Shown here: piece after piece, positions 4,272 to 62,250 of the stretch
Numbering within the stretch: the stretch's first letter is position 1
How the letters are laid out: each line of letters opens with the position of its first letter
Assembly: GCF_000515315.1 (NCBI RefSeq)
Contig: NZ_KI911562.1
Span: forward strand, 3,520,001 to 3,584,000
From: Asinibacterium sp. OR53
GTDB taxonomy: Bacteria > Bacteroidota > Bacteroidia > Chitinophagales > Chitinophagaceae
DNA length: 64,000 nt
Direction: 5' to 3'
Program-made: the position numbers and the translations under genes
The notes under the pieces: generated by a model
The model's database searches: none
Told to the model about the DNA's origin: nothing
What the model saw: the letters and a program-made list of their open reading frames with translations, nothing else

Positions 4272-4760
4272 ATGGCAAATATACTGGTTCAATGGATGGC
4301 AACGATTCTGCTGGCGGTGCTTCATCCCCTTTTCGTGTCGATGATCGATATCAACCACAATGCCAAAGCGGCTACGGCAGAGATCAGCGTGCGCATCTTC
4401 ACCGATGACCTCGAGAAAACGCTGGAACATTTTTCCAAAAGCAAGATCGATCTTACCCACCCGGCAGATAAAGCTTTTGTAGAAAAGCAGTTGGCGGCGT
4501 ATGTCAATCAAAAATTGACATTAAAAATCAATAACCAGTCTGTAGTGTTGCACTACCTGGGGTATGAAATACAGCGCGAAAGTGTGTGGAGCTATTTTGA
4601 AGTACAAAAAGTAGCGCCTTTTAAAAAAGTAGAAGTCAATTGCAGCCTGCTCTACGATTTCGAGTCGGGCCAGATGAATATCTTTCACGTGAGAAGCAAC
4701 AAAACAGAAAAAAGCTACAAGCTCGATAATCCTGCAACTACCACCAGTTTCGATTTCTAA
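4272..4760 (+). CDS. DUF6702-family exported protein
   Basis: A 162-residue protein of unknown function with a hydrophobic N-terminus (about 1-22, signal-peptide-like), then a mixed alpha/beta domain. It matches the small Bacteroidota family annotated DUF6702, usually encoded divergently from a HupE/UreJ gene and an M1 peptidase, as here. The 53-bp divergent gap to the HupE/UreJ gene must hold both promoters. The stop is 2 bp from the end of the convergent CNNM gene. No catalytic motif is evident. Confidence 0.7.
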   Translation: MANILVQWMATILLAVLHPLFVSMIDINHNAKAATAEISVRIFTDDLEKTLEHFSKSKIDLTHPADKAFVEKQLAAYVNQKLTLKINNQSVVLHYLGYEIQRESVWSYFEVQKVAPFKKVEVNCSLLYDFESGQMNIFHVRSNKTEKSYKLDNPATTTSFDF

Positions 4761-4762
4761 AT

Positions 4763-13914: not shown

Positions 13915-13920
13915 GATCGT

Positions 13921-15018
13921 TTAATACACTGTTTTTCTTTTTCCACTTTCAAAATCCCTGAATATAAAAGCCCCCAGGTTGTCGAGCGATGCAAAGAATG
14001 CTTTACCATTGTTCATCTCTGTAAACTCCTGCACAAAATTTTGCAGGTAAGGGTCCGATGCGATCATAAAAGTGGTGATGGGTATTTTGAGTTTCTTGCA
14101 CTGGGCCGCCAGGTTGATGCAGCGGTTCACCACTTTCCTGTCGAGGCCAAAACTATTTTTATAATAACGTTTACCAATTTTCAAGCAGGTAGGCTTACCA
14201 TCGGTGATCATGAATATCTGCTTGTTCGGGTTCTTGCGCCTGCGCAGGATATCCATGGCCAGTTCCAGTCCGGCTACCGTGTTAGTATGATAAGGCCCCA
14301 CTTGCAAGTAAGGCAGGTCTTTGATTTCTATGCTCCATGCATCATTACCGAACACCACAATATCCAAGGTATCTTTCGGGTATTTTGTAGTGATCAGTTC
14401 ACTCAATGCCATGGCTACTTTTTTAGCCGGGGTAATGCGATCTTCTCCATAGAGGATCATCGAGTGAGAGATATCGATCATCAGCACGGTAGAAGTTTGC
14501 GTTTTAAAATCACTTTCCCTGATCACCAGGTCGTCTTCCTGCATGTTGAAGCTGCTGACGCCATGGTTGATCTGTGCGTTGCGGATGCTCTCGGTGAAAT
14601 CAATCTGTTCGGGCATATCGCCAAACTGGAAGGGGCGGGTATCGGAGTTGCTTTCATCGCCCTGCCCGGGTTTGAAAGTCTGGTGATTGCCCTGTTTGGT
14701 TTTCTTCAGCTTACCGAATATCTCTTCGAGGCTCCGTTTGCGGATGGTTTGCTCCGATTTTTTAGTGATGTTGAGGCTCCCATCTTGTTGGTTCTCTTGC
14801 AAGTACCCGTTTTCTTTCAGTTCATCGATGAAATCGCCCAAACCATAATCGGGGTTGGTGAGTTGGTATTGCCTGTCGAGCTCATTGAGCCATTGCAGGG
14901 CTTCTGAAGCATCTCCATTGGTATAGGTGAGCAGCTGCATGAAAATATTCAGCAATTGTTCAAACTTATCCAAACTCCTCTCTGTAGGATCGAATTTTAT
15001 AAAACGATGGCCTTTCAT
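13921..15018 (-). CDS. VWA-domain protein, partner of the AAA+ ATPase
   Basis: A 365-residue cytosolic protein with no signal peptide. The N-terminal half is helical and charged. The C-terminal half is a von Willebrand A domain with an intact MIDAS: DISHS (182-186), the Thr in PYHTNT (about 247) and MITDGKP (about 271-277). It resembles the BchD/CoxE-like partners of MoxR ATPases, which bind metal-dependent ligands and couple them to ATP hydrolysis. It is the first gene of a two-gene operon. Upstream lies the repeat array, about 140 bp away. Confidence 0.87.
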   Translation of the reverse strand: MKGHRFIKFDPTERSLDKFEQLLNIFMQLLTYTNGDASEALQWLNELDRQYQLTNPDYGLGDFIDELKENGYLQENQQDGSLNITKKSEQTIRKRSLEEIFGKLKKTKQGNHQTFKPGQGDESNSDTRPFQFGDMPEQIDFTESIRNAQINHGVSSFNMQEDDLVIRESDFKTQTSTVLMIDISHSMILYGEDRITPAKKVAMALSELITTKYPKDTLDIVVFGNDAWSIEIKDLPYLQVGPYHTNTVAGLELAMDILRRRKNPNKQIFMITDGKPTCLKIGKRYYKNSFGLDRKVVNRCINLAAQCKKLKIPITTFMIASDPYLQNFVQEFTEMNNGKAFFASLDNLGAFIFRDFESGKRKTVY

Positions 15019-47073: not shown

Positions 47074-47670
47074 TTATTTCGAATGTCTTTTTTGTAACAC
47101 TTCAATTACCCGCTGCAAATTATGCCCTTTGGCGTTAAGCAAAAGCAAATAGTGAAACAGCAGGTCGGCCGCTTCTTCCAAAAACAACTCATCATTCTCG
47201 TCTTTCGCCTCAATCACCAATTCCACTGCCTCTTCTCCCACCTTCTGCGCAATCTTATTAATACCCTTGGCAAACAAACGGGCCACATAGGACTCGTCCG
47301 CCGAAGCCTGCCGGCGAAGGCGGATAATGTCTTCAAGATACAATAAAAAATCATTACTGTGGTTGCGTTCACTCCAGCAGGTATCTGCGCCGGTATGGCA
47401 TACAGGCCCCAGGGGATGCGCTTTGATCAACAATGTATCGTTATCGCAGTCCACCGTAATGCTTTTGAGTTCGAGAAAATTGCCGCTTTCCTCGCCCTTG
47501 GTCCACAAGCGTTGTTTACTGCGACTGTAAAAAGTTACTTTGCCCTGCCGCTCTGTTTCTTTCAACGCCTCTTCATTCATGAAGCCCAGCATCAACACTT
47601 TGTTGGTGGAATAATCCTGTACAATGGCGGGAACGAGTCCGTCGGCATATTTCGAAAAATCTATTTTCAT
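47074..47670 (-). CDS. hisIE: Phosphoribosyl-AMP cyclohydrolase / phosphoribosyl-ATP pyrophosphatase
   Basis: A 198-residue bifunctional enzyme for steps 2 and 3 of histidine synthesis. The HisI domain (about 1-105) has GFMNEEAL, FYSRSKQRLWTKGE, the metal site VDCDND and GPVCHTGADTCW. The HisE domain (about 110-195) has KVGEEAVELVIEAK and EEAADLLFHYLLLL. Length is standard for the fusion. Last his gene of the block, 11 bp after hisF. Confidence 0.96.
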   Translation of the reverse strand: MKIDFSKYADGLVPAIVQDYSTNKVLMLGFMNEEALKETERQGKVTFYSRSKQRLWTKGEESGNFLELKSITVDCDNDTLLIKAHPLGPVCHTGADTCWSERNHSNDFLLYLEDIIRLRRQASADESYVARLFAKGINKIAQKVGEEAVELVIEAKDENDELFLEEAADLLFHYLLLLNAKGHNLQRVIEVLQKRHSK

Positions 47671-47681
47671 GTTGCTTTGTT

Positions 47682-48440
47682 TCAGATGCGCACCACAATG
47701 CCTTGCTGGTGCAAATATGTTTTCAAATCGGGTATCGCAATTTCTTTAAAATGAAAAATACTGGCTGCCAGGGCTGCATCGGCTTTTCCTTTGTTGAACA
47801 CCTCCACGAAATGCGGCATGGTGCCGCCTCCTCCTGAGGCAATCACCGGCACCGGCAATTCCGTGGCCAAAGTTCCGGTAATATCCAATGCAAAACCCTG
47901 TTTGGTGCCATCATGATTCATGGATGTGAGCAATATTTCCCCGGCGCCCAGGTCTACTGCCTGGCGGGCCCAGTCGAGACAACGGGTATCTGTTTTCACT
48001 CTTCCCCCGTTGAGGTACACATACCATTCTCCATCAGCTTCCTGTTTGGTATCGATGGCCAGTACCACACACTGGCTGCCGAATTCGCGGGCCAGGTCGT
48101 GCACCAATGCAGGTTTCTTAAACGCCGCGGTGTTGACCGATATTTTATCGGCGCCATGCTGCAACAGCACCTGCACATCTTCCACGCTCCCGATACCGCC
48201 CCCTACCGTAAAAGGTATATTGATATGATGCGAGATACGGTTGACTAATTCACTCAGGGTCTTTCTTTTTTCGTTGGTGGCCGTGATGTCGAGAAACACC
48301 AGCTCATCGGCGCCCTGTTGCGCATACAAAGCGCCCAATTCAACGGGATCACCTGCATCGCGGATATTTTCAAAATTGATGCCCTTAACGGTTCTGCCAT
48401 CTTTGATATCGAGGCAGGGTATGATTCTTTTGGTCAGCAT
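47682..48440 (-). CDS. hisF: Imidazole glycerol phosphate synthase, cyclase subunit
   Basis: A 252-residue TIM barrel that, with HisH, makes imidazole glycerol phosphate and AICAR. The catalytic Asp11 in [15 protein letters not shown] and Asp in VLAIDTKQ (about 130) are present, as are the phosphate-binding VGGGIG and ASGGGG loops. Overlaps hisA by 7 bp. Length normal. Confidence 0.97.
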
Positions 48441-49150
48441 ATTTTTTTCAGATCATTCAGTGATATCCTGTTTTCATAGATCGCTTTCCCTACAATGGCG
48501 CCCGCGCAACCGATCTCCTGCAAACCATACAGATCATCGAGTGAGCTCACGCCCCCGCTGGCAATAAAATGCAGCGAAGGGAATTGTTCAATGATGTTCT
48601 TGTACAACAAGGTTGAAGGGCCTTCCAGCTTGCCATCCTTGCTTACATCGGTGCAGAACAGTTGTGTAATGCCATGCGATTGATATTTCGATATAAAATC
48701 GTAGATACCGATCTCTGTTGTTTCCAGCCAACCGCCCACCGCAATCTTTTCGTCTTTTACATCAGCGCCTAACAAGAATTTGTCAGCCCCATATTGTTGC
48801 AGCCATTGCACGAATAATGTTTCATTTTTAACTGCGAGGCTTCCAATGGTAGCCAATGCCGCACCCGATTCAAAAATGATCTGCAGGTCTTCCTCTTTTT
48901 TGATGCCGCCGCCAAAGTCGATCACCATGGAGGTATTACCGGCAATGGTTTCCAGCACTTTCCAGTTCTTCACAGCGCCGGCTTTGGCTCCGTCCAGGTC
49001 AACCAGGTGCAGGCGTTGCAGGCCGGCATCTTCAAACTGTTTCGCTACCTCCAGCGGGTTCTCATTGTAAATGGTCTTCTGTCCGTAATCGCCCTGTGTA
49101 AGCCGAACGCACTTTCCATCGATGATATCTATTGCGGGAATGATCTGCAT
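48434..49150 (-). CDS. hisA: ProFAR isomerase
   Basis: A 238-residue TIM barrel isomerase for step 4 of histidine synthesis. [15 protein letters not shown] carries the catalytic Asp8; the second Asp is in FCTDVSKDG (about 130). The phosphate-binding IDFGGGIK and ASGGVSS are conserved. A dedicated trpF is also present, so this HisA need not serve tryptophan synthesis. 6 bp after hisH. Confidence 0.96.
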
Positions 49151-49156
49151 GAAAGC

Positions 49157-49756
49157 TTAGTGAATTAACGTGATGAAATTTTTGAGTATCTGCTCTCCTA
49201 CTGCTGCACTTTTTTCCGGGTGAAATTGTGTGCCATAAAAATTATCCTTGTGCAAAGCGGAGCTGTATGGTTGCACATAATCGGTGGTAGCAATCGTATG
49301 CTTGCCTAGTGCAGCATAATATCCATGCACAAAATAACAGTAACTGTTCTGCGGCACCTGTGTAAACAAAGGCGTTTGCAGATCGTAGATATTGTTCCAG
49401 CCTATCTGCGGCACTTTCACAGTGGTATCTCCCAACCTTTTGAACCACTTCACTTCTTCATCAAAAATACCCAGGCAGTCTGTGTTGTTCTCTTCAGAAT
49501 ACTTACACATCAGTTGCATACCCAGGCAGATTCCCAACACCGGCTGTTTCAGGTTGCGGATCACTGTATCCAGTTTCCTTTCTTTCAGGTAACCCATGGC
49601 CGAACTGGCTTCTCCCACGCCGGGAAAGATCACTTTATCGGCCGATTGTATGGCTTCTATATCATCTGTAACCAATGCTTCCGCACCTATCCTTTCCAAA
49701 GCATATCGTACCGATTGAATATTACCTGCGTTGTATTTGATAACGACTAAATTCAT
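49157..49756 (-). CDS. hisH: Imidazole glycerol phosphate synthase, glutaminase subunit
   Basis: A 199-residue class I glutamine amidotransferase that feeds ammonia to HisF. The nucleophile is the Cys of LGICLGMQLM (about 77), with His and Glu of GTQFHPEKS (about 178). Starts 11 bp after trpA, the junction where the his genes resume after the trp genes. Confidence 0.96.
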   Translation of the reverse strand: MNLVVIKYNAGNIQSVRYALERIGAEALVTDDIEAIQSADKVIFPGVGEASSAMGYLKERKLDTVIRNLKQPVLGICLGMQLMCKYSEENNTDCLGIFDEEVKWFKRLGDTTVKVPQIGWNNIYDLQTPLFTQVPQNSYCYFVHGYYAALGKHTIATTDYVQPYSSALHKDNFYGTQFHPEKSAAVGEQILKNFITLIH

Positions 49757-49767: not shown

Positions 49768-50538
49768 TTACGATAATACCGTAGATAAAAATTCTTTGGT
49801 TGAAACAGCCAGGTCTTTTGTTTTCTCCAATGCTTTGATATAGGCCGTTCCGATGATTGCACCGTTGGTGTACTTAGACGCTGCCTGGAAAGTTTTCTTG
49901 TCTTTTACACCGAATCCCACCAACACCGGGTTATTCAACTTCATATTTTGCAAACGCTTCAGGTACGCTTCCACGGCGGTAAAGTCTTTGTCCTTGCCCG
50001 TGGTAGCGGAAGAACTTACTGCATAAATAAATCCGCTGCTCAGCGTATCCAGTTTGCGCACCCTGGCTTCACTTGTTTCGGGTGTTACCAGGAAAATGAA
50101 ATCGAGACCGTATTTTTTAATGATCGCACCATATTCTGTTTCGAATTCGTATTCGGGTAAATCGGGCAATATCAATCCGTCAATACCTACTGCTTTCGCA
50201 TCTGCACAAAATTTTTCAAAGCCGTATTGCAATACCGGGTTCATATATCCCATCAGTATCACCGGCACCTGTATTTCTTTTCGGAGGTCTTTCAGTTGCT
50301 CAAACAGGATGGCCATAGTCATACCATTCGCCAGCGCTACGCTGCTACTGGCCTGTATCACAGGGCCATCGGCCAGCGGATCGCTGTAAGGCATACCCAA
50401 CTCTACCAGATCGGCACCGTTATCCTGCAAGGCTTTCACCACTTGCAGGGTACTATCCAGTTGCGGGTATCCTGCCGTGCAATACACATTCAATACCTGC
50501 TTTTGTTTTTTATCAAATAAATCCTTGATCCTGCTCAT
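49768..50538 (-). CDS. trpA: Tryptophan synthase alpha subunit
   Basis: A 256-residue TIM barrel that cleaves indole-3-glycerol phosphate. The catalytic Glu and Asp are in DLVELGMPYSDPLADGPVIQ (Glu about 47, Asp about 58). GFGV and the IIGTAYIK segments form the phosphate site. 5 bp after trpB; the two products form the alpha2beta2 channeling complex. Confidence 0.97.
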   Translation of the reverse strand: MSRIKDLFDKKQKQVLNVYCTAGYPQLDSTLQVVKALQDNGADLVELGMPYSDPLADGPVIQASSSVALANGMTMAILFEQLKDLRKEIQVPVILMGYMNPVLQYGFEKFCADAKAVGIDGLILPDLPEYEFETEYGAIIKKYGLDFIFLVTPETSEARVRKLDTLSSGFIYAVSSSATTGKDKDFTAVEAYLKRLQNMKLNNPVLVGFGVKDKKTFQAASKYTNGAIIGTAYIKALEKTKDLAVSTKEFLSTVLS

Positions 50539-50543
50539 CGCAA

Positions 50544-51740
50544 TTATAATTTCATGTTGTTCATATAGGTAGCCAAATCTTTATCTCCCCTTCCACTCAG
50601 GCAAAGCACTATCTTATCTGTAGGTTTCAGCTTCAGTTGCTTCAAGGCAGCAAATGCATGCGCCGTTTCCAGTGCGGGAATGATACCTTCTGTTTTGGCT
50701 ACATGGAAAGCAGCCTCCAACGCTTCTTCATCGGTAGCACTCAGGAACAATCCTCGTTTGCTATCGAATAAATTGGCGTGCAGGGGTCCGATGCCGGGAT
50801 AGTCGAGTCCCGCTGAAATGCTGTGTGGCTCCACTACCTGTCCGTCTTCTGTTTGCATCACCAGGCTTTTACTGCCATGCAGCACACCCGGCTTACCCAA
50901 CTGCGTAGTGGCGGCCGACATACCGCTGTTCACCCCATGGCCTGCCGCTTCTACCGCTACCAGTTGCACGGAGGGTTCGTCGAGGAAATGATAGAAAGCC
51001 CCGGCTGCATTGCTGCCGCCGCCTACACAGGCAATCACATGTGTGGGCAATTCCGATCCGGTAGCTTCTTTCAGCTGCCACCTGGTTTCTTCACTGATCA
51101 CACTTTGGAAACGCGCTACCATATCGGGATAAGGGTGCGGTCCCACTACACTACCAATAATATAATGCGTGTCGGTTGGATTATTGATCCAGTCGCGTAT
51201 TGCTTCGTTGGTGGCGTCTTTCAATGTTTTACTGCCACTGGTAGCAGGGATCACTGTAGCACCCAGCATTTTCATTCGCGCTACATTGGGCGCCTGCCTT
51301 TCGATGTCTTTCTCGCCCATATACACAATGCATTCCATTCCTTTCAAGGCACATACAGTAGCGGTGGCCACTCCATGCTGACCGGCTCCTGTTTCGGCAA
51401 TGATCCTGGTTTTACCCAACCTGCGCGCCAGCAATATCTGGCCGATGGTATTGTTAATCTTGTGTGCGCCGGTATGACAGAGATCTTCGCGCTTGAGGTA
51501 AAGTGAAGCATTGAGTTCTTTGCTCAACCGGGTAGCCAGGAACAAAGGTGTAGGCCTTCCCACATAATCTTTCAGCAATTGCCTGAACTCTTGTTGGAAA
51601 GTTTTCTCCTCCATGATCTCGAGGTACCTTGTCCGCAGCTCTTCTACATTGCGGTAAAGCATTTCCGGTATATAGGCCCCACCGAATTTTCCATAATAAC
51701 CTTGTTCATTAGGTTGTTGGTATGTCATTGTTGTACTCAT
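50544..51740 (-). CDS. trpB: Tryptophan synthase beta subunit
   Basis: A 398-residue PLP enzyme joining indole and serine. The Schiff-base Lys is in HTGAHKINNT (about 92), the PLP phosphate loop is GGGSNA (about 236-241), and ETGAGQHGVATA and GRGDKD are conserved. The start MSTTMTYQQPNEQGYYGKFG matches the usual TrpB1 N-terminus. It follows trpF by 6 bp. Confidence 0.97.
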   Translation of the reverse strand: MSTTMTYQQPNEQGYYGKFGGAYIPEMLYRNVEELRTRYLEIMEEKTFQQEFRQLLKDYVGRPTPLFLATRLSKELNASLYLKREDLCHTGAHKINNTIGQILLARRLGKTRIIAETGAGQHGVATATVCALKGMECIVYMGEKDIERQAPNVARMKMLGATVIPATSGSKTLKDATNEAIRDWINNPTDTHYIIGSVVGPHPYPDMVARFQSVISEETRWQLKEATGSELPTHVIACVGGGSNAAGAFYHFLDEPSVQLVAVEAAGHGVNSGMSAATTQLGKPGVLHGSKSLVMQTEDGQVVEPHSISAGLDYPGIGPLHANLFDSKRGLFLSATDEEALEAAFHVAKTEGIIPALETAHAFAALKQLKLKPTDKIVLCLSGRGDKDLATYMNNMKL

Positions 51741-51746
51741 GTTCTT

Positions 51747-52385
51747 TTAAATCTGTTTAACAGCCGTTACAAATGGCCTGAGCTTATTCATGTCTTTGAT
51801 ACCGGGCGAAATTTCGAACCTGCTGTTCACATCAATGGAAAACAGGTCTTTGGCAACGGGCTCGGCAGCAAATGATTTCAACAGGTCTATGTCTTCCGGC
51901 TGTATGCCCCCACTCAGGAAAAAGGGTTTGCCAATGTTCAGTCCTTTGAGCACACGCCAGTTGAATTTTTTACCGGTTCCTCCGTATCCTGCACCTTCGG
52001 TATCAAAAAGGAACATATCGGCCACCTCCTGGTAGTCTTTGATCTTCCACAATATATTATCGTCTTCACGCAGGCGGAATGCTTTGATCACGCCTACATA
52101 GTCTGCGATCTTTTCGCAATAACGGGGTGTTTCATCGCCGTGCAGTTGCACGAGATAGAGGCCGCAGTCATCTACTGTTTGCAGCACTTCTTCTACGGGC
52201 GCATTCACAAACACGCCCACTTTATTGATCTGCCCCCTGATCTTTTTGATCTCGGCCCTGGGCATGGAACGGAAAACATAGCGGGGCGATTTGGGATAGA
52301 AAATAAATCCGCCAAATTCCACGCCCATTTCATCGAGCTGCAATACCTGTTCGGCACTTGTCATGCCACAAACTTTAATGCGCAT
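51747..52385 (-). CDS. trpF: Phosphoribosylanthranilate isomerase
   Basis: A 212-residue TIM barrel. The catalytic Cys is Cys7 in IKVCGMT and the catalytic Asp is in LFDTEGAGYGGTGK (about 127). LHGDET and LSGGIQPEDI are family motifs. Overlaps trpC by 11 bp. Its presence means the isomerase step does not depend on HisA/PriA. Confidence 0.96.
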   Translation of the reverse strand: MRIKVCGMTSAEQVLQLDEMGVEFGGFIFYPKSPRYVFRSMPRAEIKKIRGQINKVGVFVNAPVEEVLQTVDDCGLYLVQLHGDETPRYCEKIADYVGVIKAFRLREDDNILWKIKDYQEVADMFLFDTEGAGYGGTGKKFNWRVLKGLNIGKPFFLSGGIQPEDIDLLKSFAAEPVAKDLFSIDVNSRFEISPGIKDMNKLRPFVTAVKQI

Positions 52386-53175
52386 GTTGTTTTGCTTTTA
52401 GTTGATTAACGAAATCAGTAAAAGCAATCGAAGGGTCAGCCTGTTTCATAAAATTTTCTCCTATCAGGAATCCTTTGAATCCAGCCTGTTGTAAAGTTAC
52501 GATAGTATCTACATCGCTGATACCGCTTTCGGCAACAGCCGGTTTGGTATGCGGTATCTGCTCTATCAACTGCAGGGAAGTACGGATGTCTACCTCAAAG
52601 GTTTTGAGGTTGCGGTTGTTCACACCCACCATATCTACCAGGCCGGTAATATGTTCCAGTTCCGCTTCATTGTGTATTTCCAGTAATACTTCCAATCCCA
52701 AACCTTTTGCGCAGGCCGCCAGGTTCCTCACTTCTTCCGGTGTAAGGCAGGCTGCTATCAGCAAGATCACATCGGCGCCCATGGCTTTGGCTTCATACAC
52801 CTGGTATTCGTCGATCATAAAATCTTTCCGCAGGATGGGCACCTGGTTTACGCGGGCAGCTTCCAGGTCGGCCGTGGCGCCGCCGAAAAATTGCGTATCG
52901 GTCAAGACCGATAATCCGGATGCCGCCGTAGCATAAGCACGGGTGACCGCCAACACATCTGCCTTGTCATTGATGATGCCCTTGGAGGGTGATTTTCTTT
53001 TGAACTCGGCAATGATACCGGTGCGGGTTTCATCGGACAAAAAATGGCAGAGTGATAAAGTAGGCCGGGCAAAAAAAGGTTGCTTTTCCAACTGCGCGAG
53101 TGAAGTAACTGCTTTCCTTTCCGCCACTTCTTTTTGTTTCTGTGCGATGATGGTATCCAGTATGTTCATGTTCAT
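52375..53175 (-). CDS. trpC: Indole-3-glycerol phosphate synthase
   Basis: A 266-residue TIM barrel. IAEFKRKSPSKG carries the catalytic Lys (about 58), RKDFMIDEYQVYEAKAMGAD another catalytic Lys, and GVNNRNLKTFEVD and AESGI complete the site. The ATG at 53175 overlaps the trpD stop (ATGA), supporting this start over the ATG two codons later. Confidence 0.97.
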   Translation of the reverse strand: MNMNILDTIIAQKQKEVAERKAVTSLAQLEKQPFFARPTLSLCHFLSDETRTGIIAEFKRKSPSKGIINDKADVLAVTRAYATAASGLSVLTDTQFFGGATADLEAARVNQVPILRKDFMIDEYQVYEAKAMGADVILLIAACLTPEEVRNLAACAKGLGLEVLLEIHNEAELEHITGLVDMVGVNNRNLKTFEVDIRTSLQLIEQIPHTKPAVAESGISDVDTIVTLQQAGFKGFLIGENFMKQADPSIAFTDFVNQLKAKQHAH

Positions 53176-54164
53176 TGCAGTTTGATCAGGGTTTGTAAAG
53201 ATTGATGGGCTTTGCCGCTTTCCAGGCTCTCGACAGCAGCTTCATACGCCTGTTCATAGTTCTTGTATACACCTGTACAGTGTAACGCCATGGCTGCATT
53301 GGCCAGCACCACGGCATTCTGCGCCCAGCTGCCTTCACCTTTGATAATTTTAGTAAACAGCTTAGCCGCCTCTTCTACCGTATTACCACCGAATATGTCT
53401 TCGGCTGCCACTATGCGTTTACCCAGTTGCTCGGGTGTCATGATGCGCTCGCCGGTATTGGTGATCACTTTGGTATCGTTGGTCAGTGATATCTCATCAT
53501 ACCCATCGAGACTGTGGATGATGGTGAATGCCTTGCCTGTTTCCTGCAAGAGGTAATTGTAAATACGCGCCATTTCCAGGTTGTACACGCCTACCAGTTG
53601 AAAATCGGGTGCGGCAGGATTTACCATAGGTCCCAGCATGTTGAAGAACGTACGGATACCCAGGTTTTTGCGGATAGGTCCTACTGCCTTCAATGCCGGA
53701 TGAAACATGGGCGCATGCAGGAAACAGATATTCGCCGCTTCGATTTCTTTTTTCAATTGCGCCGTATCATTCTTGAATCGATAACCCAGTTGCTCCATCA
53801 CATTCGACGCACCGCTAACGCTGGAAGCGCCATAGTTACCGTGCTTGGCCACTTTCTGACCCGCACCGGCCACAATGAAACAAGCCAGTGTGGAGATATT
53901 GAACGTGTTCTTACCATCGCCTCCTGTTCCTACGATATCGATCACTTTATAACCGTCGAGGTTTACTTTCACGCAGAGTTCCAGCAATGCATCGGTAAAG
54001 CCCTGCAACTCTTCAATGGTAATGCTGCGCATGAGGAATACCGTAACAAATGCGGTAACCTCGCTTTCATTGTACTGGCCCGAAGATATCTGCAACAGCA
54101 CTTCCTTTGCCTTGCTGCGGGAAAGCGTTTTATGTTCGAATAAATATTGAAGTATTTTTTTCAT
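53172..54164 (-). CDS. trpD: Anthranilate phosphoribosyltransferase
   Basis: A 330-residue enzyme. The PRPP-binding GTGGDGKNTFNIST (about 80-93) and KHGNYGASSVSGASNVMEQLG are present. It is a stand-alone TrpD, not fused to TrpG. 35 bp separate it from trpG. Confidence 0.97.
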   Translation of the reverse strand: MKKILQYLFEHKTLSRSKAKEVLLQISSGQYNESEVTAFVTVFLMRSITIEELQGFTDALLELCVKVNLDGYKVIDIVGTGGDGKNTFNISTLACFIVAGAGQKVAKHGNYGASSVSGASNVMEQLGYRFKNDTAQLKKEIEAANICFLHAPMFHPALKAVGPIRKNLGIRTFFNMLGPMVNPAAPDFQLVGVYNLEMARIYNYLLQETGKAFTIIHSLDGYDEISLTNDTKVITNTGERIMTPEQLGKRIVAAEDIFGGNTVEEAAKLFTKIIKGEGSWAQNAVVLANAAMALHCTGVYKNYEQAYEAAVESLESGKAHQSLQTLIKLQ

Positions 54165-54199
54165 ACACTTAAGAATTGAGTAAATGATGCATCGGCATA

Positions 54200-54766
54200 T
54201 TATTGATGCAACCAGTTGTACAATATTTTTTCTCCCTGCGGCGTCAAAACACTTTCGGGGTGAAACTGTACCCCTTGCACATCGTAGGTCTTATGCTGCA
54301 AACCCATGATATAATTGTGTTCATCACGCGCGGTTATTTCCAGTTCCTTAGGAAAACCTTCATCACTCACCACCCAACTATGATAACGGCCTACTTTTAG
54401 ATTTTTATCCAACCCACTGAATATTTTATCGGTATGGTTCAGTTGAATATCAGTGGCCACACCATGGTACACGGTAGACAGGTTCACCAGCTTCGCTCCG
54501 AACGCTTCGCCGATGGCCTGGTGCCCGAGACAAACACCCAGGATAGATTTGCTGGAGGCGTAAGCTTTGATCAGCGGTAACAATAATCCTGCTTCGGAAG
54601 GAATACCCGGACCGGGAGACAGGATGATCTTATCGTAATCTTTCACTTTTTCCAATACGATCTCGTCGTTCCTGGATACATCTACTTTCTGGTGCAATAT
54701 CTTTTCTACCAGGTGCACCAGGTTGTAGGTGAAGGAATCGTAATTATCGAATACTAATATTTTCAT
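54200..54766 (-). CDS. trpG: Anthranilate synthase component II (glutaminase)
   Basis: A 188-residue class I amidotransferase. SPGPGIPSEAG, the nucleophile Cys in GVCLGHQAIGEAFG (about 79) and His/Glu of GVQFHPESVLTPQG (about 170) are clear. Such subunits may also serve para-aminobenzoate synthesis; linkage to trpE favours tryptophan. 9 bp after trpE. Confidence 0.96.
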   Translation of the reverse strand: MKILVFDNYDSFTYNLVHLVEKILHQKVDVSRNDEIVLEKVKDYDKIILSPGPGIPSEAGLLLPLIKAYASSKSILGVCLGHQAIGEAFGAKLVNLSTVYHGVATDIQLNHTDKIFSGLDKNLKVGRYHSWVVSDEGFPKELEITARDEHNYIMGLQHKTYDVQGVQFHPESVLTPQGEKILYNWLHQ

Positions 54767-54775: not shown

Positions 54776-56191
54776 TTAGATGGTGGCGGCTATTTCAATA
54801 GCTGTTTTCAATGCGTTGAGTTTATTGTTCACTTCCTGCAATTCGCTTTCAGGGTTGGATGCGGCTACAACACCCGCACCCGCCTGGTAAACCAGGGTAT
54901 TGTTGCGACTGAGGAAAGTCCTGATCATGATGGCGTGATTACAACTACCGTCAAAGCCCATGAACCCGATGGCGCCGCCGTAATAGCTGCGTGCTGTGGG
55001 TTCATAACTGTCTATCAGTTCCATGGCCCTGAACTTGGGTGCGCCGCTCAATGTGCCGGCAGGAAATGTCTTGGCCAGCAATACAAAGGGATTTTGTTTC
55101 TCCGGTACTTTAGCGGTCACTTCACTTACCAGGTGTATTACGTGACTGTAATACTGCACCTGGCGGTATTGGCTAACCGTTACGTTTTCACAAACACGAC
55201 TGAGGTCATTACGTGCCAGGTCTACCAGCATCACGTGCTCTGCATTTTCCTTTGCATCGGCCAACAACCGGGCAGCCGCCTGCTGATCGATCTCATCATC
55301 ACCGGTGCGTTTGAAAGTACCGGCGATCGGGTGCACAATGGCTTTCCCGTTCTTGATCACCAGTTGCGATTCGGGTGAAGAGCCCATCAGTTTATAATCG
55401 CCGTAGTCGAAAAAGAACAGGTATGGTGAAGGGTTAACGCTTCTCAATGCACGATACACATTGAACTCATCGCCACTGAATTGTTGTTCAAACTTCCTGC
55501 TCAATACGATCTGGAATACATCTCCGCGCAAACAACTCTGTATGCCTTTCCGCACCATCTGGCGATAGTCTTCATCGGTCATGTTGGAAGATTCCGCACC
55601 TTTCACGCTGAACGGGTACACCGGCACATCCTTGCTGCGTATCAGGGATTCTACTGCATTCAGGTCGCTTTCTATACCTGGTATCTTGTTCTCACAGATG
55701 AACAATTCATCTTTGAAATGGTTGAAAGCGATCACATACTGGTACAGGCGGTAACGCATCAGCGGAATGGCCGGCTGGCTGGTTTCGCGGTCTTTCAGTT
55801 GAATGGTATCGAAGAATTGCACCGAGTCAAAAGCGGCGTAACCGAATAAACCTTGTGAGAATTTAGCTTCTTTTTGTTCTGAAGGTTTTACATCGAAGCG
55901 TTGCATGAAATCCCACAGTTGAACCGGCACCTGTGAAGCATCGGAGAACGCTATCCTTTCAGGCTTCTGTGCCGGCAATTTGAACTCGATACTTTGTTTG
56001 TTGCTTATCTCCATGCCTGCAATGGCATTGATGCAGATAAACGAGTAACTGTTCTCTGCCGCATGGTGATCGGTGCTCTCCAACAATACCGTATCGCGGA
56101 AACGGTCGCGCACCCGCAGGTAGATGCCTACCGGTGTGAATACATCGGCCAGCATTTTCTTGCAAGTGGTTTCTAAACTGATCTTTTTCAT
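54776..56191 (-). CDS. trpE: Anthranilate synthase component I
   Basis: A 471-residue chorismate-binding enzyme. The C-terminal catalytic domain has FQIVLSRKFEQQ, the HPIAGTFKRTG motif, DLARNDLSRVCE and AGTLSGAPKFRAMELID, followed by YYGGAIGFMGFDGSCNHAIMIR. The N-terminal tryptophan-feedback element LLESTDHHAAENSYSFIC includes the LES-like motif, so feedback inhibition is likely. First structural gene after the trp leader and attenuator. Confidence 0.97.
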   Translation of the reverse strand: MKKISLETTCKKMLADVFTPVGIYLRVRDRFRDTVLLESTDHHAAENSYSFICINAIAGMEISNKQSIEFKLPAQKPERIAFSDASQVPVQLWDFMQRFDVKPSEQKEAKFSQGLFGYAAFDSVQFFDTIQLKDRETSQPAIPLMRYRLYQYVIAFNHFKDELFICENKIPGIESDLNAVESLIRSKDVPVYPFSVKGAESSNMTDEDYRQMVRKGIQSCLRGDVFQIVLSRKFEQQFSGDEFNVYRALRSVNPSPYLFFFDYGDYKLMGSSPESQLVIKNGKAIVHPIAGTFKRTGDDEIDQQAAARLLADAKENAEHVMLVDLARNDLSRVCENVTVSQYRQVQYYSHVIHLVSEVTAKVPEKQNPFVLLAKTFPAGTLSGAPKFRAMELIDSYEPTARSYYGGAIGFMGFDGSCNHAIMIRTFLSRNNTLVYQAGAGVVAASNPESELQEVNNKLNALKTAIEIAATI

Positions 56192-56213: not shown

Positions 56214-56245
56214 TAAAAAAAGCCCCGACAAAATCTGTCGGGGCT
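56214..56245 (-). terminator. trp attenuator terminator
   Basis: A 10-bp stem (AGCCCCGACA at 56245-56236 read on the minus strand, loop GATTT, TGTCGGGGCT) followed by about seven T residues. It lies between the leader peptide and trpE. Its 5' arm CCCCGA (56243-56238) can pair instead with TCGGGG (56293-56288) near the 3' end of the leader ORF, giving a 6-bp alternative antiterminator. Confidence 0.9.
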
Positions 56246-56280
56246 CTGAAAATATATTTCATAAAGTATTGGCTATGCCA

Positions 56281-56340
56281 TTACAATCCCCGAACGGAGT
56301 TTGAATGCCACCACCAATGTTTATTTGTTATTTGTTTCAT
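56281..56340 (-). CDS. trpL: trp operon leader peptide (mixed His/Trp codons)
   Basis: A 19-residue leader: MKQITNKHWWWHSNSVRGL. Three consecutive Trp codons (residues 9-11) are flanked by His codons (8 and 12). It ends 36 bp before the terminator hairpin of the attenuator. A ribosome stalled at these codons would leave the distal leader (GTT CGG GGA) free to pair with the terminator's 5' arm; translation to the stop would cover it and permit termination. The ATG is only 9 nt from the promoter -7 element. The downstream transcript encodes trpEGDCFBA and then hisHAFIE. Confidence 0.9.
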   Translation of the reverse strand: MKQITNKHWWWHSNSVRGL

Positions 56341-56348
56341 TACGTGTG

Positions 56349-56380
56349 CAAATATGGGTCAGAATCCGGTTTTCTCCAAA
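56349..56380 (-). promoter_or_regulatory. Promoter of the trp-his operon
   Basis: TTTG (minus strand, 56380-56377), 20-nt spacer, CATATTTG (56356-56349; one mismatch to TAnnTTTG). It lies in the gap between the end of hisB (56391) and trpL, so the trp-hisHAFIE unit has its own start. Confidence 0.75.
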
Positions 56381-56390: not shown

Positions 56391-57521
56391 TTACAATACC
56401 CCTTTGGTGGAGGGCAGGTAATTCGACAAAGGATCGCGCTTCACCGCCATTTTAATGGCTTTGGCAAATGCTTTGAAGATGGCTTCTATCTTATGGTGTT
56501 CGTTATCTCCCTTGCATTCAATGTTCAGGTTGCATTTGGCTGCATCGCTGAATGATTTGAAGAAATGGAAGAACATTTCCGTAGGCATCTCTCCTATTTT
56601 CTCTCTTTTAAACTCTGCATTCCAGACAATCCAGTTGCGTCCGCCAAAATCAATCAGCACTTTGGCTTCCGCTTCATCCATTGGCAAAGCAAAACCATAG
56701 CGTTCCATGCCCCGTTTATCTGTGAGCGCTTTGGCAAACGCTTCGCCCAGGGCAATGCCCGTGTCTTCAATGGTGTGGTGTTCGTCTATGTGCAGGTCTC
56801 CTTTTGTTATAATGGTCATGTCCATTTTACCGTGCCGGGCTATCTGGTCGAGCATGTGGTCGAAGAATCCCAGGCCGGTATGTATAGCTGCCTTGCCGCT
56901 TCCATCGAGGTTCAGCTCTACATGTATTTTCGTTTCGTTGGTGTTACGATCGTGCACTACTTTTCGCTGGCCCAGTTTCAGGAACTCATAAATAGCAGGC
57001 CAGTTATCTGTTTCCAACGCAACGGTTGCGCGCAGACCGGTTTCCTGCTCAGGCGTGAGTTCATGCAAAGGAGAGCGCAGGTAAATGGCTTTACATCCCA
57101 GGTTCTTTGCCAGTTGTATATCACTCCAGCGATCGCCTATCACAAATGAATGGGCCAGGTCGTATTGCTTGTTGTTGAAGAAATGTTGCAGCAATCCCGT
57201 GCCCGGCTTGCGGGTGGGTTGATTCTCACTGGCGAAGGTTTTGTCGATATGCATTTCATCAAATACAAATCCCTCTCCTTCCAGTGTACGTACCATCAGG
57301 TTATGATAGGGATGAAAATCCGATTCGGGATAAGAAGCCGTTCCCAATCCATCCTGGTTGGTGATCATCACTTTGTAAAAATCCAATTCGGCGGCTATGC
57401 GCGATAAAGCTGTGATCACACCCGGTAAGAAGGTTGTTTTTTCTATGCTGTCTACCTGAAAATCTGTAGGTGGTTCCTGTAATACTACTCCATCCCTGTC
57501 TATGAACAAAACCCTTTTCAT
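56391..57521 (-). CDS. hisB: Histidinol-phosphatase / imidazoleglycerol-phosphate dehydratase
   Basis: A 376-residue bifunctional enzyme. The N-terminal HAD phosphatase has [11 protein letters not shown] (about 3-13) and [14 protein letters not shown]. The C-terminal dehydratase has [32 protein letters not shown] and [18 protein letters not shown], all metal-binding His/Glu motifs. The last gene of the first his transcript; hisC and a sugar dehydrogenase precede it. The trp promoter starts right after its stop. Confidence 0.96.
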
Positions 57522-57571
57522 TTATTGCTGATTTCTGATTTGATGATTGCTGATTTAATGCTTCCGTTATT

Positions 57572-58858
57572 TTACCGGTATATTATTCTATAAATGGTTC
57601 CTTTCAGATCGTCTGTTACATACAATGAACCATCCGGTCCCTGTGCCAATCCACATGGCCTGTGTTGTGCGCCGTTAGCAGCATTTACTGTAGCTACGCC
57701 TGAAAAACCATCGGCAAATACTTCCCATTTGCCTGTTGGCTTTCCGTTCTCAAAAGGCACAAAGACTACAAAATAACCTGCCTGTGGTAATGGTGCGCGG
57801 TTCCATGATCCATGGAACGCAATGAATGCGCCATTCTTATACCGTGCAGGGAACTGGTTTCCTGTATAGAACAGCAATCCATTGGGGGCGAGGTGTCCGG
57901 GAAAAGCCACAACAGGATCAATCGCATCCTGTCCGCCTTCTTTTTTACCATCTCCTCCGTATTCCGGCGCCATTATTTTTTTGTGTTGTAACTGATCGTA
58001 ATAGATATATGGCCATCCCGCATTATCGCCCTTCTTCAACGCGTACATACATTCTGCCGGTAATTCTGCACTGGCCTTGTCATCGTATAGCTCGGGAAAC
58101 AAATCGTGTAACTGGTCGCGGCCATGCTGCATTACAAAAAGCTGGTTCAATTGGGTGTTCCAATCGAGTCCTACTACGTTGCGCAGACCGGTAGCATATT
58201 TCGTGCCTTCAGGATAAGATTGATTGAGTTTATCGGCGCTGAACTGCCAGATCCCACCGGCTTGTTCTAAAATCGGACAGGGCATCATGCCTTTGGATCC
58301 CTTGGTCCTGTCCTGCTCCTGGCAGGAGTTGGAATAGGCGCCGATGTTCACATAAATATTACCTGCATCATCCAGTGTAATGGATTTGGAGGAATGTTGT
58401 CCCTTGCTGATGAGTCCTGTGATGATTTTTTCGGGTTGATCGGGGTTCATCACTTCTCCTTTATCGTTCAACTTGTAACGGAATACTTCTTCGTCTGAAG
58501 AAGCATAGAGGTAATTTTTTTTGATGGCAATACCCGTTCCCCCGTAATTGCCAAAGCCGGTGGTTTCTTCTGCTTTACCATCTCCGTTGGTGTCGCGCAA
58601 ACGCAAGATGCCTTTGCCTCCTACCGGTGCGGAAAGCTTCACATAAATATCTCCCTGTGGCGTAACCACAATATGGCGCGGACTGCCCGTGTTCTCAGCC
58701 ACTTTCAGCGCGCTAAAGCCCGGCTGTAACCTGAGGCCCGCATTATTGGAATCGGGTTTCACTGCGGCAGTTTCTGTTGCTTTGTTTTTGCCTTGTCCGC
58801 ATGACCAGAGCACAACAGCAAGCATTGCAAAAGCCAGGATGGATACTAACTTCTTCAT
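57572..58858 (-). CDS. PQQ-dependent-type sugar dehydrogenase lipoprotein
   Basis: 428 residues from ATG 58858, chosen because a lipoprotein signal follows (MKKLVSILAFAMLAVVLWSC). The rest is a six-bladed beta-propeller of the soluble glucose/sorbosone dehydrogenase type (GSPRHIVVTPQGDIYVKLSA, GQHSSKSITLDDAGNIYVNI, HRPCGLAQGPDGSLYVTDD). It likely oxidises aldoses in the periplasm if PQQ is available; no PQQ genes are here. The gene lies between hisC and hisB with only 26- and 50-bp gaps, so it is presumably co-transcribed with his genes though unrelated to histidine. Confidence 0.85.
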   Translation of the reverse strand: MKKLVSILAFAMLAVVLWSCGQGKNKATETAAVKPDSNNAGLRLQPGFSALKVAENTGSPRHIVVTPQGDIYVKLSAPVGGKGILRLRDTNGDGKAEETTGFGNYGGTGIAIKKNYLYASSDEEVFRYKLNDKGEVMNPDQPEKIITGLISKGQHSSKSITLDDAGNIYVNIGAYSNSCQEQDRTKGSKGMMPCPILEQAGGIWQFSADKLNQSYPEGTKYATGLRNVVGLDWNTQLNQLFVMQHGRDQLHDLFPELYDDKASAELPAECMYALKKGDNAGWPYIYYDQLQHKKIMAPEYGGDGKKEGGQDAIDPVVAFPGHLAPNGLLFYTGNQFPARYKNGAFIAFHGSWNRAPLPQAGYFVVFVPFENGKPTGKWEVFADGFSGVATVNAANGAQHRPCGLAQGPDGSLYVTDDLKGTIYRIIYR

Positions 58859-58884
58859 ACAATTGAATTTGAGCATGAAATTAC

Positions 58885-59946
58885 TCATTTTGTCTGCAAT
58901 GCAAACCAATCCTGCAGGGCATCTACCAATACCGTATTCTCCTGTTCGGTTCCAACGGTAATGCGCAGGCAGTCTTCACAGAGTTTCACATTGCTGCGAT
59001 CGCGCAATACGATGCCTTTGGTGAGCAGGAATTCATACACTTTCCTGGCATCTTTTATTTTCACCAGGATGAAATTGGCATCGGAGGGATATACTTTCTC
59101 CACGGTAGGCATGGATTCAAAAACGCCTGCCAGGGCGCTGCGCATGTCTACCAGTATTTTGATCATGTCGTTCACCTGGCCTACTTCTTCCAGCGCCTGC
59201 AATACCAGCTCCTGTGTTGCCTGTCCGATATTATACGGTGGTTTTACTTTGTTCATCAGCTCAATAATAGCTGTTGAGGCAAAAGCCATTCCCAGGCGAA
59301 GTCCGGCTAGTCCCCATGCTTTGCTCAAGGTTTGCATCACCACCAGGTTGGGATATTCTGCCAGTTCCTGTACGAGCGATTTTTGTTTTGCAAAATTGAT
59401 ATAGGCTTCATCTACTACTACGATACCGTTGAAATTGTTCAGCACTGTTTCTATATCGGCACGGTTCAGGGAATTGCCTGTAGGGTTATTGGGTGAGCAA
59501 AGCCAGATCAGCTTGGTGTGTTCGTCTACCAGGTTTTCTATGTGCACGAGATCAAGCTGGAAGTCTTCGAGCAAAGTGGCTTTGCGTACTTCCACGTCGT
59601 TGATGTTGGCGCTTACTTCATACATGCCATAGGTAGGCGGACAAATGATTACATTATCTTTCCCCGGCTCACAGAAACAGCGGAACAGGAGATCGATGCA
59701 CTCGTCGCTGCCGTTGCCCAGGAAAATATGTTCGGAAGCGATGCCTTTGATGGCGCTCAGTTTTTGTTTGATCATTTGCTGGTGCGGATCGGGATAGCGG
59801 TTGTACCATTTGATCAGCGGTGACCCGAGGCTGTTCTCATTGGCGTCTAAAAATACTTTGGCTTCCCCGCTGAATTCATCGCGGGCAGAAGAGTAAGGCG
59901 TCAGTTTTTTTATGTTAGTCCTGGTAATTGAGTCGAGATTGAACAT
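58885..59946 (-). CDS. hisC: Histidinol-phosphate aminotransferase
   Basis: A 353-residue fold-type I PLP aminotransferase. LGNGSDECIDLLFR, the Asp/Tyr site VVDEAYINFA and the PLP lysine in LSKAWGLAGLRLGMA (about 216) are present, with the C-terminal LRITVGT. Converts imidazole-acetol phosphate to L-histidinol phosphate. 2 bp after hisD. Confidence 0.96.
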   Translation of the reverse strand: MFNLDSITRTNIKKLTPYSSARDEFSGEAKVFLDANENSLGSPLIKWYNRYPDPHQQMIKQKLSAIKGIASEHIFLGNGSDECIDLLFRCFCEPGKDNVIICPPTYGMYEVSANINDVEVRKATLLEDFQLDLVHIENLVDEHTKLIWLCSPNNPTGNSLNRADIETVLNNFNGIVVVDEAYINFAKQKSLVQELAEYPNLVVMQTLSKAWGLAGLRLGMAFASTAIIELMNKVKPPYNIGQATQELVLQALEEVGQVNDMIKILVDMRSALAGVFESMPTVEKVYPSDANFILVKIKDARKVYEFLLTKGIVLRDRSNVKLCEDCLRITVGTEQENTVLVDALQDWFALQTK

Positions 59947-59948
59947 GT

Positions 59949-61226
59949 TTATTGCTTTAATCGTATCGAGACTGCATTTTTGTGTGCATCGAGTCCTTCT
60001 GCCTCCGCCATCAGTTCTACGGTATTGCCGATGGCCTGTAATCCTTCTTTGGATAATTTCTGGTAGGTGATCTTCTTCACAAAAGAATCAAGACTCACAC
60101 CACTGTAAGCTTTGGCAAAGCCATTGGTAGGCAGGGTATGATTGGTGCCGCTGGCATAGTCGCCCGCACTTTCGGGTGAATAATTTCCCAGGAAAACAGA
60201 GCCTGCATTGGTGATCCTCTCTGCTATCGCTTCTTCTTTATCACAGGCAATGATGAGGTGTTCTGCCGCGTATTCATTTACCAGTGCGATGGCTTCGTTG
60301 ATGTCTTTCACTACAATGGCTTTGCTGTTTTGCAGTGATGCGGTGGCCATGGCTTTCCTGGGCAAGGTCTTCAACTGGTATTCAAGTTCCTTATTCACTT
60401 TTTCTACAAGCGATTCTTCGGTTGTTACCAGCAATACCTGACTGTCGGTGCCATGCTCTGCCTGGCTTAACAGGTCTGCGGCCACAAAAGCGGCGTTGGC
60501 AGTGCCATCGGCCAGCACGCATACTTCGCTCGGTCCGGCCGGCATATCAATGGCAACACCTTCTTGTTGTACCAATTGTTTGGCACAGGTAACATATTGG
60601 TTGCCCGGTCCGAATATCTTGTACACCTGCGGCACTGTTTCAGTGCCATAAGCCATGGCAGCGATCGCCTGCACGCCCCCTATCCTGAATATTTTGGAAA
60701 CACCCGTGAGTTGCGCTGCATATAGTATGGCAGGGTTGAGTTTACCGTCCTTACCCGGAGGAGAGCAGAGAATGATTTCTTTACATCCAGCCATTTTCGC
60801 CGGTATGGCCAGCATTAAGATAGTAGAGAAGAGCGGCGCAGAACCGCCGGGTATATAGAGACCTACTTTTTCAATACCCACACTTTTTCTCCAGCATTGT
60901 ACACCGGGCATAGGTTCCACTACTTCTACAGCAGCTATCTGTTTTTCATGGAAGCACTTAATATTAGAAGCAGCCTGTGCTATCGCTTTTTTCAGGTCAT
61001 CGGGAACTTCTGCTGCGGCTGCTTCGATTTCCGCTGCGGGCACCAGGAATTCTTCCAGGTTCACTTCATCAAACTGACGGGTGAATTGCCTCACGGCTTT
61101 ATCGCCGTCCTGCTTCACCACATCCAATACGCTTCTCACCTTCTGTTGTAAGGCAGCAGTGTCGAGTTCGGGTCTCAGTAAAATTTTGTTCCAGTCTTTC
61201 CGGGAGGGTTGGGTAACAACATTCAT
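59949..61226 (-). CDS. hisD: Histidinol dehydrogenase
   Basis: 425 residues from ATG 61226 (MNVVTQPSRKDWNKILL); other in-frame starts lie at 61232 and 61274. The zinc/catalytic motifs are visible: PGGSAPLFSTILM, FGPGNQYVTCAKQLVQ, MPAGPSEV, LLSQAEHGTDSQV and ASGTNHTLPTNGFA. Oxidises L-histidinol to histidine in two steps. 28 bp after hisG. Confidence 0.96.
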   Translation of the reverse strand: MNVVTQPSRKDWNKILLRPELDTAALQQKVRSVLDVVKQDGDKAVRQFTRQFDEVNLEEFLVPAAEIEAAAAEVPDDLKKAIAQAASNIKCFHEKQIAAVEVVEPMPGVQCWRKSVGIEKVGLYIPGGSAPLFSTILMLAIPAKMAGCKEIILCSPPGKDGKLNPAILYAAQLTGVSKIFRIGGVQAIAAMAYGTETVPQVYKIFGPGNQYVTCAKQLVQQEGVAIDMPAGPSEVCVLADGTANAAFVAADLLSQAEHGTDSQVLLVTTEESLVEKVNKELEYQLKTLPRKAMATASLQNSKAIVVKDINEAIALVNEYAAEHLIIACDKEEAIAERITNAGSVFLGNYSPESAGDYASGTNHTLPTNGFAKAYSGVSLDSFVKKITYQKLSKEGLQAIGNTVELMAEAEGLDAHKNAVSIRLKQ

Positions 61227-61254
61227 GATCATATAACCTATAATTAAGTTTCTG

Positions 61255-62109
61255 TTAAACCACCATCTTCTCAATAGGCACTACCAATATCCCCTGCGCA
61301 CCAGCCGCTTTCAACTGTTCAATGATATCCCAGAACTGGTTTTCATTGAGTACGCTGTGTACGCTGCTCCAGCCTTCTTCGGCGAGGGGCAACACAGTAG
61401 GACTTTTCATCCCAGGTAACAGCGATATGATCTCTTTCAGCTTCTCATTGGGTGCATTGAGCAACACGTATTTGTTGTTCTTTGCCTTCTTCACTGCCTG
61501 AATCCTAAACAATAATCGGTCCAATAATTGCTGCTTTTCCGCGGCCAGGTCTTGATTTTTGATTAAAACTGCCTGTGATTGCAGGATGGTTTCCACCTCT
61601 TTGAGTCCGTTCATAAACAGGGTAGATCCACTGCTCACCAGGTCGCAAATGGCATCGGCCAATCCTATACCGGGGGCGATCTCCACACTGCCGCTGATCT
61701 CGTGTACCTCTGCTTCAATGCCTTTTTCCTTCAGGAAACGGGATACGATCACAGGGTAGCTGGTGGCGATCTTTTTACCTGCCAGGTACTGTGCTCCCGG
61801 GTAATCTTCGTTCCGGTGTACGGCAATACTGAGGCGGCATTTACCGAAGCCCAGTTCGTGGGCTACCGCTACTTTTTTTGCTTTTTCATACACTACGTTC
61901 TCTCCTACAAATCCGATATCTGCTACCGCATCTTCCACGTATTGCGGGATATCATCGTCGCGCAGGAAATATACTTCCAACGGGAAGTTGCTGGCATCGG
62001 CTTTCAGTTTGTTTACACCGTTACTGACGTCGATACCGCATTCTTTGAGGAGCCGCATGGAATCATCGTGCAGACGGCCGCTTTTCTGGATCGCTAATTT
62101 CAACTTCAT
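61255..62109 (-). CDS. hisG: ATP phosphoribosyltransferase, long form
   Basis: A 284-residue enzyme catalysing the first, feedback-controlled step of histidine synthesis. The catalytic domain includes AIQKSGRLHDDS, ADIGFVGENVV and the PRPP loop EIAPGIGLADAICDLVSSGSTL; the C-terminal about 75 residues form the ACT-like regulatory domain of the long (HisGL) form, which does not need HisZ. First gene of the his unit, just downstream of the his leader and terminator. Confidence 0.96.
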   Translation of the reverse strand: MKLKLAIQKSGRLHDDSMRLLKECGIDVSNGVNKLKADASNFPLEVYFLRDDDIPQYVEDAVADIGFVGENVVYEKAKKVAVAHELGFGKCRLSIAVHRNEDYPGAQYLAGKKIATSYPVIVSRFLKEKGIEAEVHEISGSVEIAPGIGLADAICDLVSSGSTLFMNGLKEVETILQSQAVLIKNQDLAAEKQQLLDRLLFRIQAVKKAKNNKYVLLNAPNEKLKEIISLLPGMKSPTVLPLAEEGWSSVHSVLNENQFWDIIEQLKAAGAQGILVVPIEKMVV

Positions 62110-62139
62110 ACTATTGCTTTACATTGCTTTAAATGACAA

Positions 62140-62163
62140 AGGGCCTACCTTTCGGTAAGCCCT
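62140..62163 (-). terminator. his attenuator hairpin
   Basis: On the minus strand: AGGGCTTACC, loop GAAA, GGTAGGCCCT, a 10-bp stem with one G-T pair, followed by TTGTCATTT. The 5' arm segment GCTTACC (62160-62154) can instead pair with GGTAGGC (62204-62198), which spans the hisL stop codon. The T tract is weak, so termination may be partial. Confidence 0.75.
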
Positions 62164-62199
62164 TCAATGTTTTATCTGTACACACAAAACACCAACAGC

Positions 62200-62250
62200 C
62201 TACCCTTTGGGTAAGTAATGATGATGGTGGATATGTGCGAATAATTTCAT
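62200..62250 (-). CDS. hisL: his operon leader peptide
   Basis: A 16-residue leader MKLFAHIHHHHYLPKG with five His codons, four of them consecutive (8-11). It lies upstream of hisG, followed by a hairpin terminator. The logic is classical histidine attenuation: stalling at His codons when charged tRNA-His is scarce frees the region around the stop codon to form the antiterminator. The ATG is 10 nt from the promoter -7 element. Confidence 0.9.
   Translation of the reverse strand: MKLFAHIHHHHYLPKG

Follow-up and report, generated by a model that had tools for sequence, protein, structure and literature searches.

The window, a 64,000-nt stretch of the Asinibacterium sp. OR53 genome, contains a histidine operon with trp genes nested inside it, in the order hisGDC-x-hisB-[Trp leader MKQITNKHWWWHSNSVRGL]-trpEGDCFBA-hisHAF-hisIE, all on the minus strand. 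The upstream part (hisG, hisD, hisC, a glucose/sorbosone-dehydrogenase-like gene, and hisB) spans positions 56391–62109. It is followed by trpE (54776–56191; TIGR00564, E 2e-123), the first gene past the attenuator described below, then by trpG, trpD, trpC, trpF, trpB, and trpA (49768–54766) and by hisH, hisA, hisF, and hisIE (47074–49756). NCBIfam searches identified these trp and his genes and bore out the gene content that a preliminary description had placed below the leader. Because only 11 nt separate trpA from hisH in the window, hisHAFIE is very probably co-transcribed with the trp genes. The glucose/sorbosone-dehydrogenase-like gene (57572–58909, minus strand) lies between hisC and hisB in the window, as it does in many relatives, and no function in making histidine is evident for it.

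A second leader precedes hisG and the other his genes upstream of trpE. Its ORF, MKLFAHIHHHHYLPKG (62200–62250, minus strand), carries regulatory codons for His only and is followed by a terminator hairpin of 12 pairs (62139–62165, minus strand). Where hisB precedes trpE and hisG is in view, a His-run leader was found at hisG in 22 of 22 loci. The upstream his half therefore appears to be served by a conventional His attenuator; hisHAFIE, the downstream half, lies behind the Trp attenuator and, given the nested order with two leaders, would be reachable solely via its readthrough. In genomes where hisH does not lie downstream of the trp genes, the his genes stand together as hisGDCBHAFI behind one His leader (9/9 unlinked genomes read at hisG: L319–L324, L326, L328, and L329, some with small gaps; L325 ends before hisG), so that only nesting places hisHAFI behind a trp attenuator. 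In L329, an assembly with 5% contamination, hisD, hisC, and hisH are each in two pieces, which suggests assembly frameshifts or decay.

Anatomy of the leader between hisB and trpE

The leader ORF MKQITNKHWWWHSNSVRGL (19 codons; 56281–56340, minus strand, with ATG at 56340 and TAA at 56281) lies between hisB and trpE and has orthologs in relatives. Read from the sequence, its codons include His8 (56319–56317), Trp9–11 (56316–56308), and His12 (56307–56305). Right after the hisB stop codon is a putative promoter-like element (56349–56380, minus strand), composed of TTTG (56380–56377), 20 nt, and CATATTTG (56356–56349). The Bacteroidota promoter consensus is TAnnTTTG, from which CATATTTG differs by one mismatch. 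Of the 233 leaders compared below, 189 have a loose -7-like motif in the 60 nt preceding them.

An intrinsic terminator (56215–56247, minus strand) follows the ORF, with a hairpin of 13 pairs formed by AGAGCCCCGACAGATTTTGTCGGGGCTTT (56247–56219) and then a T-run; it is the strongest terminator-like site in the surrounding 18.5 kb. Part of its 5' arm, CCCCGA (56243–56238), is complementary to TCGGGG (56288–56293, minus strand), which comprises the end of codon 16 and codons 17–18, and this complementarity makes an antiterminator possible. TCGGGG begins 11 nt past the His12 codon in the window, and across the 233 leaders the complement to the terminator arm usually begins 12–16 nt past the Trp run. 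These observations upheld the 19-codon ORF with HWWWH, the promoter-like motif, and the terminator arm able to pair with the leader end that the preliminary description had reported.

A leader (1:2) hairpin (56268–56318, minus strand) is predicted both by folding and by a consensus fold computed from 23 close relatives, in which the second hairpin is the terminator. In this prediction, the 5' strand consists of the Trp run and the next His-Thr/Ser-Asn codons, and the 3' strand of the last part of the ORF and bases past its stop codon; CGGGG is sequestered through pairing with CUCC. The bases of the His12 codon lie inside the stem of the consensus fold, and the CUCC:GGGG pairing is kept in all 23 relatives via C-G or U-G pairs. 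For the 129-nt leader the folding energy is -44.8 kcal/mol, whereas shuffled sequences average -24.5 (z -5.8). The sequence hallmarks of a leader-peptide Trp attenuator are present: immediately ahead of trpE, a short ORF contains tandem Trp codons, an intrinsic terminator stands between this ORF and trpE, and an alternative antiterminator pairing and a sequestering hairpin are predicted.

The closest described element is the Bacteroid-trp leader RNA (Rfam RF01692), for which the table of Weinberg et al. 2010 (PMC2864571) gives the motif without a second amino acid. In this Trp leader of Bacteroidetes, an AUG is followed by a hairpin whose 5' arm carries tandem UGG codons and then by a terminator, and the window aligns to the model end to end. 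The window nevertheless scores 29.5 bits, below the membership threshold of 49, and no clear His codon stands at the corresponding place in the model consensus. An unlinked relative, L135, is a clear member at 88.5 bits. The model misses the Chitinophagaceae and other nested-operon leaders scored against it (L133, L138, L140, L151, and the window) and could be extended or split. The E. coli trp leader (RF00513, Trp_leader) shares leader-peptide attenuation, tandem Trp codons, and competing antiterminator and terminator structures; the window scores 21.9 bits against its threshold of 41, and in E. coli the Trp codons are followed by Arg. The window leader, with just two isolated His codons, also falls short of RF00514 His_leader (19.7 bits against 49). 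No T-box or other Rfam riboswitch was found at gathering score in the window, where only a tRNA reached threshold.

Conservation of His beside the Trp run

We collected trpE regions from 100 genomes of the family, then from more genomes including other families, and from 80 named contigs. Duplicates and loci without a recognizable Trp leader were dropped, which left 233 leaders: 114 linked (hisH downstream of the trp genes), 74 unlinked, and 45 with linkage unresolved or hisB only. Linkage was rechecked by a HisH search in 80 + 45 genomes picked regardless of their leaders, and the single-Trp leaders and the L140 leader were identified by reading the sequence. Nesting of trp in his is common in Chitinophagaceae and also occurs in other families; its carriers are soil and water bacteria.

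A His codon directly follows the Trp run in 111/114 linked leaders versus 29/74 unlinked ones, in which the remaining residues at this position are Gln (17), Leu (13), Asn (5), and others (10). The preliminary description had allowed that the flanking His codons could be chance. With a post-run His in 111 of the 114 linked relatives, both in Chitinophagaceae and in f36, f16, and f67, His12 is no coincidence of the window genome, and the failure of conservation in relatives of the same gene order that would have counted against the proposal did not occur. Conservation of His8 is far weaker: a His codon immediately preceding the run, which the window has in KHWWWH, occurs in only 27/114 linked leaders, though in just 1/74 unlinked ones. 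His before the run was also considered as the main conservation signal and was rejected because it is variable among relatives. A stricter expectation, that His persists only where his genes lie downstream, fails on the 29 unlinked leaders that have it, although His does evolve in step with linkage, as described below.

At least one side of the Trp run is flanked by an adjacent His in 112/114 linked leaders. The three linked leaders without His after the run are L253 (WWGH), L297 (HWWWQ), and L279 (YWRWWSA). In L253, which reads Trp-Trp-Gly-His, His is kept and one Trp has been lost, and in L297 His stands on the other side. L279 is the sole linked locus without any His. It belongs to the same genome as L311, where a Trp leader that has no His codons precedes trpEGDCFBA-hisHA-hisGDC, a different type of nesting; a His leader was looked for in L311 and none was found.

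Linked loci outside Chitinophagaceae also carry His after the run in f36 (L133, L305, and L306), f16 (L138), and f67 (L140), and a fourth family, f86, has no His at this position. In L144 and L304, two unlinked relatives in f36, the residue is Leu. L138 at first appeared to be an unlinked exception and proved to be linked when hisH was located. The leaders MKTIINKHWWWHTEANQLAG (L133), MNNNKNWWHAGKNTFAV (L305), MNLSINKHWWHTSEYSNV (L306), MKTTTNKYWWWHLNSFPGKVQQALA (L138), MKTLMNNIWWWHSNSFQTRM (L140), and MNFKHVHISWWWHGVKLKSL (L151), and those of Chitinophaga such as MITINKHWWWHGINS (L270), have little in common beyond Trp-Trp-His. Qualitatively, this recurrence in dissimilar settings is the strongest evidence that more than common ancestry is at work. 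Among linked loci with divergent TrpE (<68.5% identity), His is kept in 19 of 22, and the residues past Trp-His vary widely.

In one Chitinophagaceae clade the regulatory core is unusually small: a single Trp codon is left, in the context Gly-Trp-His (MNTINISNNGWHTYSSLG is an example). Two members of the clade are linked (L256 and L258), and linkage is unresolved in L251, L255, L257, and L260. Judging from the leaders of this clade and of L253, Trp codons were lost before His. The leader in the window and its relatives show the features expected of a multivalent attenuator at the sequence level, namely codons for more than one amino acid, synthesis genes behind the terminator, and retention in relatives.

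Several loci in the comparison have further unusual features. The interval between the trp leader terminator and trpE of L133 holds a tRNA-Trp (CCA) gene (8414–8485, minus strand), oriented like the operon. Between trpA and hisH, L314 has an aromatic-pathway gene that appears DAHP-synthase-like (4685–5725, minus strand), and the nested operon of L312 has a purU-like gene (13157–14083); both loci belong to other families. Contig JADCRZ010000071.1 (L239) is titled "Williamsia sp.", an actinobacterial genus, yet carries a Chitinophagaceae-type trp-his operon and is probably a misnamed record.

Association of His with operon linkage

We compared dependent and independent models of change for His and linkage on a TrpE tree with 232 tips. 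The null distributions were obtained by simulating His independently of the observed linkage while keeping the tree, with 48 simulations for each test. For His after the run, the likelihood ratio (LR) was 39.5, and the largest null value was 15.7. For His before the run it was 28.2 (null 95% 19.3), an association that is borderline because the null maximum, 28.3, reaches the observed value. Scoring His on either side gave an LR of 32.3 in the core family (92/92 linked versus 21/38 unlinked) and 16.6 in the divergent remainder (20/22 versus 8/35). Control features of the leader also correlate with linkage (LR 1.5 to 28.8), and His after the run exceeds all of them; the highest control value belongs to Asn at +3, which is part of the HTN block of the core family, and Thr at +2 likewise tracks linkage.

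A nested-operon ancestor might have had Trp-His by chance, with the two traits persisting by descent and functionally unconnected. Both traits form clusters on the tree, Thr at +2 and Asn at +3 track linkage as well, and an independent-pair test, which points in the same direction throughout (3.3 to 0 on average), offers too few informative pairs for significance. We nonetheless consider such an inherited coincidence very improbable, since the LR for His lies far past a simulated null that keeps the tree, His is retained in TrpE-divergent linked loci in which the residues beyond Trp-His are variable, and His has been lost in several separate unlinked clades, where it is replaced by Gln, Ser, Leu, Tyr, Asn, or Pro.

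Base pairing offers a second alternative, in which the attenuator responds to Trp only and His is kept because CAU pairs in the leader hairpin with bases at or after the stop codon, histidine itself not being sensed. The His codon does lie in the stem of the consensus fold of close relatives, and third bases are restricted in the core family, where among the first 101 loci the His codon is CAT in 92/94 and the next codon is ACA in 77/84. The stretch CAT ACA AAC is conserved at the RNA level beyond codon needs, so pairing does constrain it in the core family, and the 29/74 unlinked leaders that keep His would also fit this explanation. In the unlinked leaders without His, however, the post-run codon is still predicted to be paired at two or more of its three bases in 32/45 cases, indicating that the hairpin tolerates Gln, Leu, Asn, and Tyr codons with altered partners. 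The predicted pairing involves the His codon but has no need of His. Across all linked loci, both His codons are used after the run, CAT in 97 cases and CAC in 14. Nor does pairing account for the difference between linked and unlinked leaders, for His preceding the run, for the leaders of divergent families, or for those reading Gly-Trp-His. A purely structural reading had been our first candidate and was demoted once the hairpin was seen to accommodate non-His codons; we now regard it as unlikely.

His might instead slow or shape translation in some other way, through ribosome-polymerase synchrony or as an aid to stalling at the Trp codons, with histidine not acting as a signal. An adjacent His in 6/32 unlinked leaders outside the family, above chance for a rare amino acid, is in line with this possibility. 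Neither the association with hisH linkage nor His before the run (HWWWQ in L297, and the 27/114 versus 1/74 difference) follows from it, and we give it hardly any credence.

Taken together with conservation, the association with linkage supports the dual-specificity leader proposed in the preliminary description and suggests that His codons are retained because histidine genes lie behind the leader.

Proposed response to Trp and His shortage

We think it quite likely that the leader is a ribosome-mediated attenuator at the junction of the nested his-trp operon and that it is bivalent, sensing a shortage of either Trp or His. Low charged tRNA-Trp or low charged tRNA-His would stall the leader ribosome. 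With a Trp codon, His12, or His8 in its A site, the ribosome would mask the 5' strand of the leader hairpin and leave TCGGGG unpaired; TCGGGG could stay free because His12 ends 11 nt ahead of it. Free TCGGGG would then pair with CCCCGA, no terminator would form, and trpEGDCFBA-hisHAFIE would be transcribed. When Trp and His are both ample, the ribosome would reach the stop codon and cover TCGGGG, allowing the terminator to form.

Since hisHAFIE sit behind the terminator of a Trp leader, we infer that the His codons matter physiologically: lacking them, a transcript from either the His-only leader at hisG or the trp promoter would end whenever tryptophan is plentiful. A ribosome reaches about 9–10 nt past its A-site codon. 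His12 is thus about the last codon at which stalling would still free the antiterminator strand, which would explain a second sensor codon at the edge of the Trp run. A single post-run codon acting as a sensor has a precedent in the E. coli trp operon, where termination is partly relieved under arginine starvation. Attenuator theory holds that sensitivity drops with the fraction of regulatory codons (PMC1183508), and with one His codon beside three Trp codons, the response to His is predicted to be weaker than the response to Trp.

Multivalent attenuators are familiar from enterobacteria, where the thr leader has Thr and Ile codons and the ilvGMEDA leader has Ile, Leu, and Val codons. Both operons are listed as attenuator-controlled (PMC1183508). 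As in the leader described here, a single leader peptide combines regulatory codons for two or more amino acids. Their amino acids belong to one shared branched pathway, however, whereas those of the Trp/His leader belong to two separate pathways, with one operon inside the other. The same kind of nesting as in the window, with trp genes inserted in the his operon and a probable single transcription unit, has been described for Thermoflavifilum thermophilum and Filimonas lacunae (Del Duca et al. 2021, PMC8305728); the passages on it treat these two species and describe no leader or regulation, whereas we find the arrangement in many Chitinophagaceae and in other families. In Flavobacterium, leader-peptide attenuation of amino acid operons has been inferred from transcription data (PMC9723704). 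We found no report of a Trp plus His leader in the searchable literature, most subscription journals being outside it. Bacteroidete Trp leaders and trp-in-his nesting are already known, and the comparison suggests that the Trp plus His leader is a new form of multivalent attenuation.

The two-pathway bivalence is probably owed to operon nesting, being kept while the operons are nested and decaying after they separate, with one clade shrunk to a sensor of one Trp and one His. The natural series of nested, un-nested, and decaying leaders would offer a test of the fewest codons needed to sense an amino acid. The proposed bivalence also cautions that a Trp run alone does not make a Trp leader a single-input switch. 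If the proposal is correct, the inner attenuator of a nested operon gains, or must keep, codons for the amino acid of its host operon.
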